Assembly (NCBI GenBank): GCA_024689485.1 | Contig: JAILDK010000087.1 | Coordinates: 1-58,675 of the forward strand | Length of the DNA: 58,675 nt | Source: Fibrobacter sp. | GTDB taxonomy: Bacteria; Fibrobacterota; Fibrobacteria; Fibrobacterales; Fibrobacteraceae | Reading direction: 5' to 3' | Part shown: in pieces, positions 17,993 through 56,594 of the stretch | Position numbering within the stretch: position 1 is the stretch's first letter | Layout of the letters: each line of letters opens with the position of its first letter | The notes under the pieces: generated by a model | The model's database searches: none | Seen by the model: only the letters and a program-made list of their open reading frames with translations | What the model was told of the DNA's origin: nothing | Made by a program: the position numbers and the translations under genes

Positions 17993-18076
17993 GCGGGTGT
18001 GGCGGAATTGGTATACGCGCTAGATTCAGGTTCTAGTGTTCGCAAGGACATGAAGGTTCAAGTCCTTTCACCCGCA
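17993..18076 (+). tRNA. tRNA-Leu (anticodon CAG)
   Basis: 84-base class II tRNA. The acceptor arm GCGGGTG pairs with CACCCGC (18069-18075), with discriminator A at 18076. The anticodon stem CTAGA/TCTAG encloses the loop TTCAGGT, giving anticodon CAG, which reads CUG. The long variable arm (TGTTCGCAAGGACA) is typical of leucine tRNAs. The T arm contains GGTTCAAGTCC. The 3' CCA is not encoded (the next bases are TAA), so it must be added by the nucleotidyltransferase. Confidence 0.95.
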
Positions 18077-20082: not shown

Positions 20083-21308
20083 TGCGGTTTGGTCGATTCT
20101 CTATTGGTGCGCTTCTTTTGTACGCCTTTATCTTAATGGCGTGTAGTACGTCGTCGGATCATGCGGGAATCGAAATTGGAAATCCGGAAATCCAGGCCCA
20201 TTCTTTTTCGGCACACTTTTTTGTGGATTACGGTTCGGGCGAAAATGCGGATTCTGTCCAGCTGGACGGATTGCATTTGGCGCTTTCGAAACTTTCGGCT
20301 TATTCCAGCTATTATATCTATGTGAGCTTCGATGCGGAAGACGGCTTGACCCTTTGGCCGGATGTTTCGTCCGATGCACCGATGACGATTGCGTTTACGG
20401 AAGATTCCCTTTCGGAAGAAGAAAATTGGCTGAGCGCCTTTGGCGATATTTCGATCGATGATGAAGGCCTTTTGAAAGAAATCGGAGCGCATTTTGCTCC
20501 GGTCGCTGCGGATCCGCAGGTGACGGGCTCGATCCAGATGGCGGATGTGGCTGTGCCGTTTACGTTCTCGCTTTCGGGCTTGGATTCGTTTGAAGTCCGC
20601 TATATGCAGGATCAGCTGGACACGGCGGAAAATGGAGCGATCTCTTTGACGGTGCGCTTTAGTGTGCCGGACTGGGTCGATGGTCTTTCGCTTTCGACGG
20701 CTGCACTCGACGGCGATACGGTTCGTTTCGATGCGTTGCACAATGCGGCTCTTTGGGATTCGTTGACGACGCGTTTTGTGAAGTCTTTCTCGGCGTCGCA
20801 CTACGTTGTGAATTATGCGGACGGTGCAGCGGAAGAGGATTATGCAGAAGATCTGCTTGCGCAGTATGATGTAATCGATTCCAACTGGGTTTCGAACGGT
20901 ACGTTTGAAAACGGCGAAGGCTGGATTGTGGTGCGTCAGCTTGGCGGCTACGCGGACACCTCTGTTTTGAACAATATCATGACGGTGAACGTGACGTATC
21001 CGGGACCGTACAGCTACAGCGTGCAGCTGATCCATGAAGATATCCCGCTTTTGAAAGATCGCAAGTACAAGCTTGTGTTCACCGCTTACGCGCAGGATTC
21101 GGCGAATGTCACGGTGCGCATCGGTTCTTACAGCACCTATAATACCGAAGCCTTCCAGGAACATGTGACGCTTGAACCGGTCTGGAGATCGTATGAATTC
21201 GAATATACGGCTCTGGTCGATGATCTCTTTGCTCGCCTGGAATTCAACGTGGGCAAGAACCAGACGAAGTATCAGTTCAAGGATGTGAAGATTTACCGCA
21301 TCGACTGA
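20082..21308 (+). CDS. Lipoprotein with C-terminal carbohydrate-binding-like domain
   Basis: A 408-residue lipoprotein (lipobox ILMAC). After the lipid anchor comes the GIEIGNPE segment, then about 250 residues of beta-rich sequence without a known domain. Residues 283-408 form a jelly-roll resembling CBM4/9: NGTFENGEGWIVV, YSYSVQLIHEDIPLLKDRKYKLVFTAYAQ, and VKIYRID at the end. It is translationally coupled to the TIGR02147 gene upstream. The second pair at 36240-38290 has the same order, which makes a functional link likely: perhaps the lipoprotein senses or binds glycan at the surface. The 3' end overlaps the EamA gene by 32 bases. Confidence 0.75.
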   Translation: MRFGRFSIGALLLYAFILMACSTSSDHAGIEIGNPEIQAHSFSAHFFVDYGSGENADSVQLDGLHLALSKLSAYSSYYIYVSFDAEDGLTLWPDVSSDAPMTIAFTEDSLSEEENWLSAFGDISIDDEGLLKEIGAHFAPVAADPQVTGSIQMADVAVPFTFSLSGLDSFEVRYMQDQLDTAENGAISLTVRFSVPDWVDGLSLSTAALDGDTVRFDALHNAALWDSLTTRFVKSFSASHYVVNYADGAAEEDYAEDLLAQYDVIDSNWVSNGTFENGEGWIVVRQLGGYADTSVLNNIMTVNVTYPGPYSYSVQLIHEDIPLLKDRKYKLVFTAYAQDSANVTVRIGSYSTYNTEAFQEHVTLEPVWRSYEFEYTALVDDLFARLEFNVGKNQTKYQFKDVKIYRID

Positions 21309-22188
21309 TGGTGTAAACGCCAAGAATAATCAGCAAAATAGCGAGGGCCTGACTCGGCCCGAAAATCGCAAGTCCGACAGCGACAGAGACGACCGAAGAA
21401 ACGGTCGGCTGTACGTAATTGTACATGGCGACGATCGTCGGCGAAAGAGTCTTTTGCGCATGCATCATCAAAAGGTAGGCGAGGAAAGTTCCGCCGAGAA
21501 CGACAAAGGAAATTTCGGCCCAGGTGACGGCTTGGACTTGTGCGAAGGGGATTTGCATCACTTGCGGGAGTGTCAGCGGCAAAGTGGTGACAGCCGAAAA
21601 GGTGAACATCCACTTCATGCAGGTGATGGTATTGTAACGGCTGATGACGTTCTTGAACAGTGCAAGGTAAACGGCAAAGCAGCACTGCGCAAGGACGCAG
21701 AGAAGGTCGCCGGCGATGTTTCCCGCTTTTGCATTAGAAGCCGTTGCGCTTCCGAGAATGAGGATCAACGCGCCGCTTAAACCGAGCGCAATGCCGAGGA
21801 CTTTTTTCCAGGTGATGCGCTCGTTCAAAAAGATGGCAGAGGAAATCAGGGCAAAGATCGGAAGGGAAGTCGTGGCGATGGTCGCATTGATCGGCGAAGT
21901 GATAGAAAGCCCGACGTTGTAGCACGTCTGATTCCCGACGATCGAAAAGAAGCCCGCGCCAAAGAGCTTGAGCAGATCGCGGAAGGGAACTTTTTCGTTC
22001 CGCGTTTTTGCGGTGCAAAGGGAAATGAGCCAAAAGCAAATCGCGGCGCCTGTCGTGCGGAAGAAAACCATGTCGATGCCCGTGATGCCCGAAAGCATCG
22101 CCGCTTTCCCAACCGGAGCCATCAGCCCCCAGATCGCCGCCGCGGAAAGAAGACAAAGATGCGCATGGAGAATTTTGCTGTTTTGCAT
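21277..22188 (-). CDS. EamA/DMT-family transporter
   Basis: A 303-residue inner-membrane protein with ten hydrophobic segments in two EamA repeats of five. SAAAIWGLMAPVGKAAM opens repeat 1 and AGNIAGDLLCVLAQCCFAVYLALFKNVI opens repeat 2. The NYVQPTVSSVVSVAVGLAIFGPS segment near the end is the conserved EamA finish. Family members export amino acids or metabolites. ATG 22188 starts the first TM repeat properly. The open frame continues upstream through a tandem repeat and should not be included. Confidence 0.85.
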   Translation of the reverse strand: MQNSKILHAHLCLLSAAAIWGLMAPVGKAAMLSGITGIDMVFFRTTGAAICFWLISLCTAKTRNEKVPFRDLLKLFGAGFFSIVGNQTCYNVGLSITSPINATIATTSLPIFALISSAIFLNERITWKKVLGIALGLSGALILILGSATASNAKAGNIAGDLLCVLAQCCFAVYLALFKNVISRYNTITCMKWMFTFSAVTTLPLTLPQVMQIPFAQVQAVTWAEISFVVLGGTFLAYLLMMHAQKTLSPTIVAMYNYVQPTVSSVVSVAVGLAIFGPSQALAILLIILGVYTISRCGKSSHP

Positions 22189-22237
22189 AAAACGCTCGTC
22201 AAAAATTTTCGTCCCCAAATTTACAAAGGATGAACCC

Positions 22238-22520
22238 CTCGCAAACACACCGCCCAACCAAAGCTCCATCCCCGCCCCCGCCGCAAGGCAAAGAACTTCT
22301 CTTTCAAGAAAAAAACGTGCCCGTCCGCAGCCCCCCTCGCAAACACACCCCCCAAAACAAGGCTTAAAGCCCGCCTCCGCCGCAAGGCAAAGAACCTCCC
22401 TTCCAAGAAAAACTGTGCCCCTCCGCAGTCCCTCTCGCAAACACACCCCCCAAAACAAGGCTTAAAGCCCGCCTCCGCCGCCAGGCAAAGAACTTCCCGT
22501 CCAAGAAAAAAACGTGCCCT
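22238..22520. repeat. 98-bp tandem repeat, three copies
   Basis: The anchor word CTCGCAAACACAC begins at 22238, 22336 and 22434, so the period is exactly 98 bases. The last two copies are nearly identical for about 70 bases; the first has diverged in its middle. Each unit also holds GGCAAAGAAC followed by a C-rich arm. The unit is not a multiple of three and carries no start-like context. Confidence 0.85.
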
Positions 22521-22521
22521 A

Positions 22522-22588
22522 GGGGGTAGATGCAAGAAAGGGGGACCTCGGGCTTCGTAACTCTGAGAGGTCCCCCTATCTTGCCCCC
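22522..22588. repeat. Long imperfect hairpin element
   Basis: Inverted repeat: GGGGGACCTC (22540-22549) pairs perfectly with GAGGTCCCCC (22567-22576), loop 17 bases. The stem extends outward with GCAAGA (22532-22537) to TCTTGC (22579-22584), across an AA/TA mismatch, and then GGGG against CCCC. It is not followed by a T run and so is unlike an intrinsic terminator. Confidence 0.75.
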
Positions 22589-22621
22589 GGCCGGGCAGGC
22601 CAAGCGGTTCGTTCCGAACAA

Positions 22622-22812
22622 AAGCCTCCCTGCTGCAGGGAACCCTCTCGTCAGAGGTAGCATTCCTTGCCAAGGTAAAACCTCCCTGCCAAGGTAAAAC
22701 CTCCTTGCCAAGGTAGACCCTTTCCTGCCAAGGTAAAGCCTTCCTGCCAAGGAAAAGCCTCCTTGCCAAGGTAGACCCTTTCCTGCCAAGGAAAAGCCTC
22801 CCTTGCTAAAGG
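22622..22812. repeat. Array of 19-20-bp units with short palindromic cores
   Basis: The word TGCCAAGG recurs at 22668, 22687, 22706, 22726, 22745, 22764 and 22784, with a worn copy at 22804, giving steps of 19 or 20 bases. Each unit is a tiny palindrome (CCTTGCCAAGG or close) plus an A-C-C-T-C-rich spacer. Upstream units keep the spacer but change the core: CCCTG-CTG-CAGGG, then CCTCT-CGTC-AGAGG. Read on the minus strand, the spacer is GGAGG-C/T-TTTAC. Confidence 0.8.
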
Positions 22813-22831
22813 AACGAACCTTTAAAAAGAA

Positions 22832-22856
22832 AAACCTCGGTATTGCACCGAGGTTT
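22832..22856 (-). terminator. Terminator of the decarboxylase operon
   Basis: On the minus strand, AAACCTCGGT pairs with ACCGAGGTTT across a five-base loop, followed by TTCTTTTT. It sits 20 bases past the stop of the beta-subunit gene. Confidence 0.85.
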
Positions 22857-22876
22857 CTCTTTGAAAAGTTCAGACT

Positions 22877-24040
22877 TTAGGCAAGTCTCGAAATCATGTA
22901 ACCTGCGCAGATGGCGGTACCGATCACACCCGAAACGTTCGGACCCATGGCGTGCATGAGAAGGAAGTTCTGCGGATCGTACTTGGCGCCTTCCACCTGG
23001 GAAACGCGCGCGGCCATCGGAACAGCCGACACGCCAGCGGAACCGATCAACGGGTTCACCGGGTTCTTCGGGCTGCACCAGTTCATGATCTTTGCAAGGA
23101 GAAGTCCTGCGAAGGTCGAGAAGCCGAAAGCAACGACACCCATCGCAATGATCATCAAGGTCTTCGGCTGCAGGAAGATGTCTGCGGACATCGTCAAACC
23201 GACGGAAGTACCGAGGAAGATCGTCACAATGTTCATGAGTTCGTTCTGAGCCGTCTTCACGAGACGTTCCACGACACCCGCTTCCTTGAAGATGTTACCG
23301 GTCATGAGCATAATGATCAGAGCGGAAGCATCCGGAACGACGAGCACGCAGACAACCATCACGAGCACTGCGAAGGTGATGCGTTCAAGCTTCGAAACCT
23401 TGCGGAGGCTCTTCATGCGAATGACGCGTTCCTTAGCGGTTGTCATCGCTCGCATGATAGGCGGTTGAATCAGCGGCACGAGTGCCATGTAAGTGTAAGC
23501 CGCGACGGCGATTGGCCCAATCAGGTGCGGCGCAAGCTTGTTGGCCGTAAAGATGGACGTCGGACCGTCTGCACCACCGATGATACCGATGGAAGCAGCT
23601 TCACCGAGAGTGAATCCACCAAAGGCGACAGCGCAGAACATCGTAATGAACACGCCGAACTGAGCACCACCGCCGAGAATCAGCGTACGCGGATTTGCGA
23701 TCAGCGGTCCAAAGTCGGTCATGGCACCGACGCCGAGGAAGATGATAGGTGGGAAGAGCTCGAGATGAATGCCTTGGCTGATGTAGTAGAAAAGACCGGC
23801 AGTCGGAGTGAACATTCCTTCGATGCCCCAGCCGCCTTCATAGAAGCCGCGGGACGGAATGTTGACGGCGAGAGCGCCGATCGCAATCGGCAAAAGAAGT
23901 AAAGGCTCGTACTTCTTGACGATTGCGAGATACATCAGCACAATGCTGACGAGCCACATGACGATCATCGGACCCGAGATTGCGGAGAATCCCGTGCCGT
24001 TGACGAACATGTCTGTGACTGAGTTTAAGATACCACTCAT
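22877..24040 (-). CDS. Na+-pumping decarboxylase beta subunit (MmdB/OadB/GcdB family)
   Basis: A 387-residue integral membrane protein with about ten TM segments. It decarboxylates the carboxybiotin carried by the biotin protein and couples this to Na+ export. The diagnostic GIIGGADGPTSIF (about 153-164; Asp158 is the essential acidic residue) is intact, and the C-terminal SAVPMAARVSQVEG and MGPNVSGVIGTAICAG motifs are conserved. Last gene of the operon, 12 bases after the biotin-carrier gene. The family alone does not distinguish methylmalonyl-CoA, oxaloacetate and glutaconyl-CoA decarboxylases. The context favours methylmalonyl-CoA. Confidence 0.93.
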   Translation of the reverse strand: MSGILNSVTDMFVNGTGFSAISGPMIVMWLVSIVLMYLAIVKKYEPLLLLPIAIGALAVNIPSRGFYEGGWGIEGMFTPTAGLFYYISQGIHLELFPPIIFLGVGAMTDFGPLIANPRTLILGGGAQFGVFITMFCAVAFGGFTLGEAASIGIIGGADGPTSIFTANKLAPHLIGPIAVAAYTYMALVPLIQPPIMRAMTTAKERVIRMKSLRKVSKLERITFAVLVMVVCVLVVPDASALIIMLMTGNIFKEAGVVERLVKTAQNELMNIVTIFLGTSVGLTMSADIFLQPKTLMIIAMGVVAFGFSTFAGLLLAKIMNWCSPKNPVNPLIGSAGVSAVPMAARVSQVEGAKYDPQNFLLMHAMGPNVSGVIGTAICAGYMISRLA

Positions 24041-54983: not shown

Positions 54984-55043
54984 AAGTTGTTGATTTTTAA
55001 GGGATTAGGACGATTGGATTGTAACGAAATTGTAAGGAAGGAG

Positions 55044-55074
55044 AATTGACAATTGACAATTATCAATTAACAAT
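55044..55074. repeat. Heptamer direct repeat
   Basis: Four tandem units of the form AATTxxC (AATTGAC, AATTGAC, AATTATC, AATTAAC) and a partial one. The centre also forms a small inverted repeat, AATTGA/TCAATT. Confidence 0.6.
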
Positions 55075-55088
55075 GATTTGTAAGAGAG

Positions 55089-55142
55089 CCTTTACTGCGG
55101 AAGGGAGCTTTTACTGCGGAAGGGAGGCTTCTTTCCGCGGAG
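55089..55142. repeat. 19-20-bp repeat units with GGGAGG spacer
   Basis: Two nearly identical units, CCTTTACTGCGGAAGGGAG and CTTTTACTGCGGAAGGGAGG, then a partial unit with TCCGCGGA. GCGGAA in unit 2 pairs with TTCCGC in the partial unit. Flanks (CTTTTAC...GGGAGG) match the spacer of the array at 22622-22812. Confidence 0.6.
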
Positions 55143-55143
55143 C

Positions 55144-55179
55144 TAATACCTTATACCTAATACCTTATAACTATATACC
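55144..55179. repeat. 14-bp direct repeat
   Basis: TAATACCTTATACC at 55144-55157 and TAATACCTTATAAC at 55158-55171, then the fragment TATATACC. It ends at the stop of the MATE gene. Confidence 0.55.
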
Positions 55180-55181
55180 GC

Positions 55182-56594
55182 TTAGGCTTTGACGTCGAGC
55201 AGGTGCTTGCGCCATTTTCCGCTCTTCCAACGGTACAGGAAGAACAGCGGGGCGGTGCTGTACACGGCGACGACGGCGATCCATGCGTAATGGGCCGGCA
55301 AATGGAACACGTAGGCGGTCACGTAAAGGGATCCTGCGACAAACCAGTTCATGAGCGCGCTTGCAAACATCACCCATAAAGTGTCTCCTGCGCCACGGAG
55401 TGCTCCCGCATAAATCACGAGCAGAACTTCCACAAAAATATACAGCGCTGCAAAACGGAGCATAAAGAGGCTCATCGGCCGGGCGTTTTCAAAAATGGAA
55501 ATCGCCGAAGCCGCAGCGCTCGCGTCGGGCCTAAAAATGTCGGCGAGGACGCCCGGCAAAAAGATGAACAGCACACCGATAATCGCGGAATACGCCCAAC
55601 CGATCCGCAGCCCCGAATAAGTGGACCGCGTTGCGGCTGCGCCTTCCTTTGCGCCCACGTAACGTCCCACCAGGCTCGTCGAGGCGACTTCAAGGCCCAT
55701 CAGCGGCACGTACGCCACCATGTCCCAGTTGAACATGATCGACGATGCGGTGGCGGATTCCGGACCGAGGGCGTGGAACATCAAAATCAAAAGCTGGAAA
55801 GCCGTCATGTTCAAAAACATTTCGACGCCAGAGGGAATGCCCCTTTTTAAGAGTTCCACTGTCAAAGGCTTGCTGAAGGCGAAGGAATTTCGCGTGTTGA
55901 AACGCTTGTGGTAAGATTTGCTGAAAAATTTGGCGAAAAGGATTACCGTGGAGACGGCGTTCCCGATAAGGGTTCCGTAGGCGGCGCCTGCAATGCCCAT
56001 CGCGGGAATCGGGCCTGCGCCGTAAATGAGGAAGAAGTTGCAGACCACGTTTACGATCATGCCCACGAACGCGGCCTTCATCACGATTTTGGTTTCACCG
56101 ATGCCGCTAAAAAAGCACGGAGCCGCATTGCGCACCAGGTTGATGATGCCGCCGAACATCAAAATGTTGAAGTAGGTTTTTTGGTACTGCAATTGGTCGG
56201 CAGGGAGATGCTCCAAACCGAAGACGATGTGCCCCAGGGGAATCGTCAAGTATAAAAGCGGAACGCAGATGAGCGACAGGTAGATCGCCTGCATAAAGAC
56301 TTTGGCGCAGTCGCCGTGCTTTTTGGCGCCAAGGCGTTGCGCGACCATGGCGGTCGTGTAGCTGATCGCTCCGGTAAAGAACGTGATGAGGGCGAGCTGG
56401 ACTGCCCCCGCGCCGAGTGCCGCATTCATTTCGGCGGGGCCGAGCTTGGAAAGGAAAAGCCTGTCGATAAAGGTCATGAAGGTGTCGAAGCTCATCGAAA
56501 GGAGCATCGGCAGGGCGACGGTGAAAACATCTTTAACGTCGCCGTTCTTTTTGAATTTTCCAGGCTTGTAAAGTTTGTTGAAAAATGCGAACAT
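55182..56594 (-). CDS. MATE-family efflux transporter
   Basis: A 470-residue exporter with twelve hydrophobic segments in two MatE repeats. FTVALPMLLSMSFDTFMTFIDRLFLSKLG begins repeat 1 and FSKPLTVELLKRGIPSGVEMFLN begins repeat 2; GLEVASTSLVGRYVGAKEGA is the conserved loop after TM8. Such proteins use Na+ or H+ gradients to expel cationic drugs or metabolites. Substrate is unknown. Confidence 0.88.
   Translation of the reverse strand: MFAFFNKLYKPGKFKKNGDVKDVFTVALPMLLSMSFDTFMTFIDRLFLSKLGPAEMNAALGAGAVQLALITFFTGAISYTTAMVAQRLGAKKHGDCAKVFMQAIYLSLICVPLLYLTIPLGHIVFGLEHLPADQLQYQKTYFNILMFGGIINLVRNAAPCFFSGIGETKIVMKAAFVGMIVNVVCNFFLIYGAGPIPAMGIAGAAYGTLIGNAVSTVILFAKFFSKSYHKRFNTRNSFAFSKPLTVELLKRGIPSGVEMFLNMTAFQLLILMFHALGPESATASSIMFNWDMVAYVPLMGLEVASTSLVGRYVGAKEGAAATRSTYSGLRIGWAYSAIIGVLFIFLPGVLADIFRPDASAAASAISIFENARPMSLFMLRFAALYIFVEVLLVIYAGALRGAGDTLWVMFASALMNWFVAGSLYVTAYVFHLPAHYAWIAVVAVYSTAPLFFLYRWKSGKWRKHLLDVKA

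Follow-up and report, generated by a model that had tools for sequence, protein, structure and literature searches.

Genomic Context

The window analysed here, a stretch of 58,675 nucleotides, belongs to a draft genome of Fibrobacter sp. (G000) that comprises 132 contigs. The mini-palindrome array at 22622-22812 is intergenic, and it lies between oadB (22877-24040, minus strand, PF03977), which encodes the beta subunit of oxaloacetate/methylmalonyl-CoA decarboxylase, and a gene for an EamA-family transporter (21277-22188, PF00892), which comes next on that strand. A hairpin with 22-nt arms at 22820-22868 on the minus strand, recognised by repeat and hairpin analysis, follows oadB as its probable terminator, and the array is located downstream of it. 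Read from the EamA side, the gap harbors a 98-bp repeat, a conserved 76-nt element, a group of edge palindromes, the array and the terminator, after which oadB is reached. The 98-bp repeat, detected by TRF as 2.9 copies at 22235-22519, represents a second tandem expansion of the gap and is situated just upstream of the EamA gene, beyond the 76-nt element.

Anatomy of the Array

The array of mini-palindromes reported at 22622-22812 by the first-pass annotation was recovered by TRF, repeat families and a palindrome search. Its tandem part (22663-22812, minus strand), which is also matched by the covariance model R1 described below, consists of eight mini-hairpin units of 19-20 bp with the cores CCTTGGCAAGG, CCTTGGCAGGA/G and CCTTTAGCAAGG, and the palindromes themselves measure 11-16 nt. 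A period of 19 with 7.3 copies (22664-22803) and a period of 58 with 2.4 copies and 91% matches were both returned by TRF, which together indicate a three-unit higher-order repeat. On the minus strand, the cores are ordered as one CCTTTAGCAAGG, seven of type CCTTGGCAAGG or CCTTGGCAGGA/G, and then CCTCTGACGAGAGG and CCCTGCAGCAGGG, the last being followed by GTTCGGAACGAAC just beyond 22622-22812. Seven perfect palindromes, defined by arms of at least 5 and a loop of 1-6, were counted in 22600-22815, where dinucleotide shuffles gave 1.39, while the non-tandem edge at 22600-22660 alone contained three against 0.26, and none of the 1000 shuffles reached either count.

The idea that the array is coding sequence or an artefact of assembly is very improbable. 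Two minus-strand ORFs do cross it and the genome is a draft, but the unit lengths of 19, 19 and 20 bp shift the reading frame, and recognisable units were found at the orthologous gaps of two other assemblies, one of which (G003) is a single closed contig; the draft state could leave the array length open to assembly error. A CRISPR was likewise considered and was rejected on anatomy, as cores and linkers both repeat and the units are 19-20 bp.

The cores of the tandem part differ mostly by one or two substitutions, and CCTTGGCAAGG, CCTTGGCAGGA/G and CCTTTAGCAAGG are, as read from their sequences, few-substitution variants of one ancestor. Where a right arm has become CAGGAA, the palindrome has moved outwards to TTTCCTTGGCAGGAAA with six pairs, so that the shift keeps the symmetry. 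The clearly different cores, CCTCTGACGAGAGG, CCCTGCAGCAGGG and GTTCGGAACGAAC, are confined to the edge at 22607-22657 and are found in a sister species as well. The minus-strand linker AGG[C/T]TTT[A/T] occurs at six of the ten junctions, the other four being occupied by AAAGGGTCTA (twice), AATGCTA and GTT, so that the spacer within the array cannot be called constant. Across loci, the linker AGGCTTT recurs next to five cores (CCTTGGCAAGG, CCGTGGCACGG, CCATTGGCATGG, GACCGCGAAGCGGTC and GTTCGGAACGAAC), and the proposed combination of a constant spacer with changing palindromes holds loosely on that scale only.

Three palindromes of the edge, all assigned to the minus strand, were delineated by palindrome search and genome comparison. 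The first, CCTCTGACGAGAGG (22644-22657), recurs with a single arm change in the sister genome G003, and the second, TCCCTGCAGCAGGGA (22627-22641), is identical there. The third, GTTCGGAACGAAC (22607-22619), is linked via AGGCTTTT to the preceding palindrome and is present in G003, with one change, and in G004. Common descent of these palindromes with the array core is at most possible, given how much their sequences differ.

The 76-nt Hairpin Element

The 76-nt element (22525-22600, minus strand) forms a hairpin with 18-nt arms at 22532-22549 and 22567-22584, which are 94% complementary and enclose a constant loop, CTCAGAGTTRCGAAG; its predicted RNA fold has an energy of -35 kcal/mol (z -4.6). 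Three copies exist in the genome, namely in the oadB-EamA gap, upstream of tRNA-Val (contig C108), and upstream of a gene on contig C44 which we take, from its sequence, to be dapL (LL-diaminopimelate aminotransferase); apart from 22525-22600 of the window, the element was recorded at L026:5464-5540, L027:518-593, L159, L160 and L162, copies in sister genomes included. An exact search with the core of the element in about 85,000 species genomes retrieved it, outside its own genome, from this Fibrobacter clade only, in the entries 'Fibrobacter sp. UBA4373' and 'Fibrobacter sp. RGIG10307' (yak rumen).

At the oadB site, the element is identical at 75 of 76 positions (99%) between G000 and its orthologue in G004, where oadB is 93% identical, and the dapL and tRNA-Val copies are identical in G000, G002 and G004 save one inserted G. 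In G003, the hairpin is mostly lost at all three sites and only remnants are left. Two sequence types of the element were distinguished in alignment A4, in which two differences are two-sided with the pair kept, from A-T to G-C in CAAGA/TCTTG and from A-T to C-G in GGGGGACC/GGTCCCCC, and one difference breaks a pair. A peptide encoded by the plus-strand ATG frame through the element was considered and rejected, since six of the seven differences between the types would alter an amino acid. The conservation of the hairpin, which exceeds that of coding DNA, suggests that at least this part of the intergenic sequence is not junk, and it may represent an undescribed functional element, which is more interesting than the array itself and deserves follow-up.

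Beside the tRNA-Val copy of the element, 40-bp tandem arrays with GCGAACGRAGTGAGC were observed (L027:160-470; G004:C38:33015-33430), which amount to 11 copies in G004 and three in G000 at the tRNA-Val site; 11 other genomes of the family lack them.

Related Sites in the Genome and in Sister Genomes

Short relatives of the array are present at the two other loci that carry the 76-nt hairpin, where one or two mini-palindromes with the same linker stand beside it; they read CCATTGGCATGG-AGGCTTTT-CCGTGGCACGG upstream of dapL and CCATTGGCATGG-AGGGTTTA upstream of tRNA-Val. The census of such sites drew on searches and on the direct reading of about 420 kb. R1, a covariance model of linker-core-linker, was run on ten genomes of the family, and its matches at E < 0.05 in G000, G002, G003 and G004 were located only at the oadB, dapL and tRNA-Val sites; no convincing match was obtained in G001 or G005-G009. 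The long array is therefore unique, yet it is part of a small family. Two-mismatch pattern matches beyond the three loci were mostly unrelated sequence and occurred at the frequency of the reversed control. A unique array with cores explained by single mutations, which the first-pass annotation had set against its own reading, was encountered in the tandem part, but neither in the edge palindromes nor in the relatives elsewhere.

Orthologous sites were identified for all three loci in G003 and in G004 and for the dapL locus in G002. The oadB-EamA gap contains eight TGGC-type units in G000, two in G003 and one in G004, whose oadB genes are 96.4% (G003) and 93.2% (G004) identical to that of G000. 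The tandem expansion is thus recent, and the slippage that had been proposed as the source of the mini-hairpins is supported by these data as far as copy number is concerned. The 98-bp repeat is likewise a single copy in G003 and G004 and is expanded only in G000, which, taken together with the unit counts, reveals that the gap underwent two expansions in the lineage to which the window belongs.

Covariation of the Cores

Between loci, the cores change on both sides, as exemplified by CCTTGGCAAGG, CCGTGGCACGG and CCATTGGCATGG, and the third core pair is T-A, G-C or, in the 12-nt core CCATTGGCATGG, A-T. In 11 linker-core-linker units with an 11-nt core, 97.7% of the cells are paired, compared with 85.3% in shuffles, and one core pair is altered on both sides in six cells (T-A or T-G versus G-C). 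These counts were taken from alignment A3, which holds 11-nt cores only, as the indel of the 12-nt core was placed outside the loop in the MAFFT alignments A1 and A2; the alignment was built around the palindrome by the analyst's choice. The covariation signal is weak because it stems from a single pair and roughly two independent events.

In E. coli, quasipalindrome template switching makes imperfect inverted repeats perfect (PMC7202029), and the two-sided core changes are consistent with either hairpin upkeep or such template-switch repair, between which they do not separate. The sites known from that work resemble the present cores in that perfection of inverted repeats would explain the two-sided changes, but they are known as a type of mutation and not as the cause of repeat arrays, and their role here is hypothetical. 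It is conceivable, though rather unlikely, that the mosaic of 76-nt hairpin and mini-hairpins as a whole is a structural element selected for in this clade, and that perfect palindromes with ever different sequences are rebuilt between its similar linkers by hairpin-templated replication, which would amount to an active palindrome-generating process in the genus.

RNA Structure and Protein Binding

The array and the 76-nt hairpin might together constitute a structured RNA of the minus strand, such as a leader, an attenuator or a small RNA, whose hairpins are kept by selection, an explanation that we hold to be unlikely but the most serious competitor of the reading given below. Folded as minus-strand RNA, 22500-22865 is far more stable than shuffled sequences (z -7.4), with z -3.6 for the array alone and z -2.3 for the plus strand; one-sided core changes would correspond to U-G pairs in minus-strand RNA, and the near identity of the big hairpin between G000 and G004 described above points in the same direction. 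The terminator, the big hairpin and mutual pairing of the repeats, however, account for much of the z-score. The array is located beyond the probable oadB terminator, a scan of 21900-23100 for sigma-70-like promoters came up empty, and Rfam at the gathering threshold yielded only a tRNA (17993-18076) in the whole window and no match in the array region. At the dapL and tRNA-Val sites, moreover, this strand of the element runs antisense to the gene downstream, and in G003 little of the big hairpin is left at any of the three sites.

Binding sites for a dimeric regulator or a nucleoid protein are an improbable alternative, which draws on the palindromic cores and their regular spacing of 19-20 bp, about two helical turns, but is contradicted by the interchangeability of the cores, by the one or two copies in sister species, and by the presence of three loci only in the genome at inconstant places relative to promoters. 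The earlier suggestion that each core serves as a protein-binding or RNA-hairpin site was not borne out; the array is positioned beyond the terminator, single units fold weakly as RNA, and the orientation of the element relative to neighbouring genes is inconstant. The mini-hairpins most likely have little or no function.

Proposed Origin of the Array

The array is probably a lineage-specific minisatellite that arose by tandem expansion inside an older intergenic palindrome mosaic. This mosaic consists of one 76-nt hairpin and one to several mini-palindromes with AGGCTTT-like linkers, placed at three fixed sites of the clade. One mini-hairpin unit would then have been amplified at the oadB-EamA gap by replication slippage or by unequal recombination between the short repeated linkers, and either process would account for the number of copies, for the higher-order repeat and for the deletion-like states of the relatives. 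Hairpin-templated (quasipalindrome) correction or weak selection for the hairpin may keep the cores symmetrical. Among these steps, the copy-number expansion at the gap is shown by comparison of the orthologous sequences, the polymerase-slippage step is inferred, and the upkeep of symmetry by template switching or weak selection is suggested by few two-sided changes. As one and the same orthologous gap holds one, two or eight units, it can be traced how a palindromic repeat grows and how it stays symmetrical.

Relation to Known Repeat Families

Intergenic minisatellites, or VNTRs, are composed of units arranged head to tail, in numbers that vary among close relatives. The array shares this organisation, with eight, two and one units in close relatives and an inner higher-order repeat, but it differs from them in that each unit carries a palindrome and that different palindromes are strung on a similar linker.

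That the units are REP/BIME elements which owe their spread to a REP-associated tyrosine transposase (RAYT) is the least credible account, with hardly any probability left to it. The array resembles these elements in its clustered short intergenic palindromes with stems of 4-7 bp and short loops (PMC3733652, PMC8266576), and GTAG follows some of the cores on the plus strand (22656, 22714 and 22772). REPs, however, are marked at one end by an invariant tetranucleotide, GTAG or CGTC (PMC3733652), and the other cores of the array have GTAA or GGAA, so that the family has no constant tag. Its palindromes are intergenic and measure 11-16 nt in units of 19-20 bp, and those of REP/BIME are intergenic palindromes of 20-40 bp. 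Three loci per genome, as obtained with R1 and by pattern search, contrast with tens to thousands of dispersed copies. No Y1_Tnp (PF01797) match was obtained in G000 or G004, which leaves the genome without a RAYT-type gene; PF01797 is present in some relatives but is unlinked to the three loci as far as examined. The sites occupy orthologous positions in different species and thus give no sign of recent movement.

Heptamer repeats such as TAACTGA (PMC4679880) are also intergenic short tandem repeats, but their units are 7 nt long, AT-rich and not palindromic. Repeats of this kind were observed elsewhere in the genome, in a second and far more dispersed intergenic family at 55030-55200 of the window (also L199, L200, L202 and L206), which has 33 further matches in the genome. 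In this family, AT-rich heptamer-like repeats (CAATTAACAATTATC, CTAATACCTTATAA) are interleaved with quasi-palindromic units around CTACTGYGGAA / TTTACAGTRGAA, and some units are spaced by GGGAGCTTTTAC, which resembles the array linker. A search of the literature on palindromic repeats of Fibrobacter retrieved nothing specific. On contig C8 of the sister genome G002 (L219:1462-1520 and 1657-1690), after a FabZ-like gene, the sequence AGGCTTTTGTTCCGAACGGGCTTTTGTCCCGAACGGAACTCTACTGCGG combines the linker GGCTTTT with other palindromes and adjoins a core of this second family, an arrangement that suggests modular mixing of linkers and palindromes.
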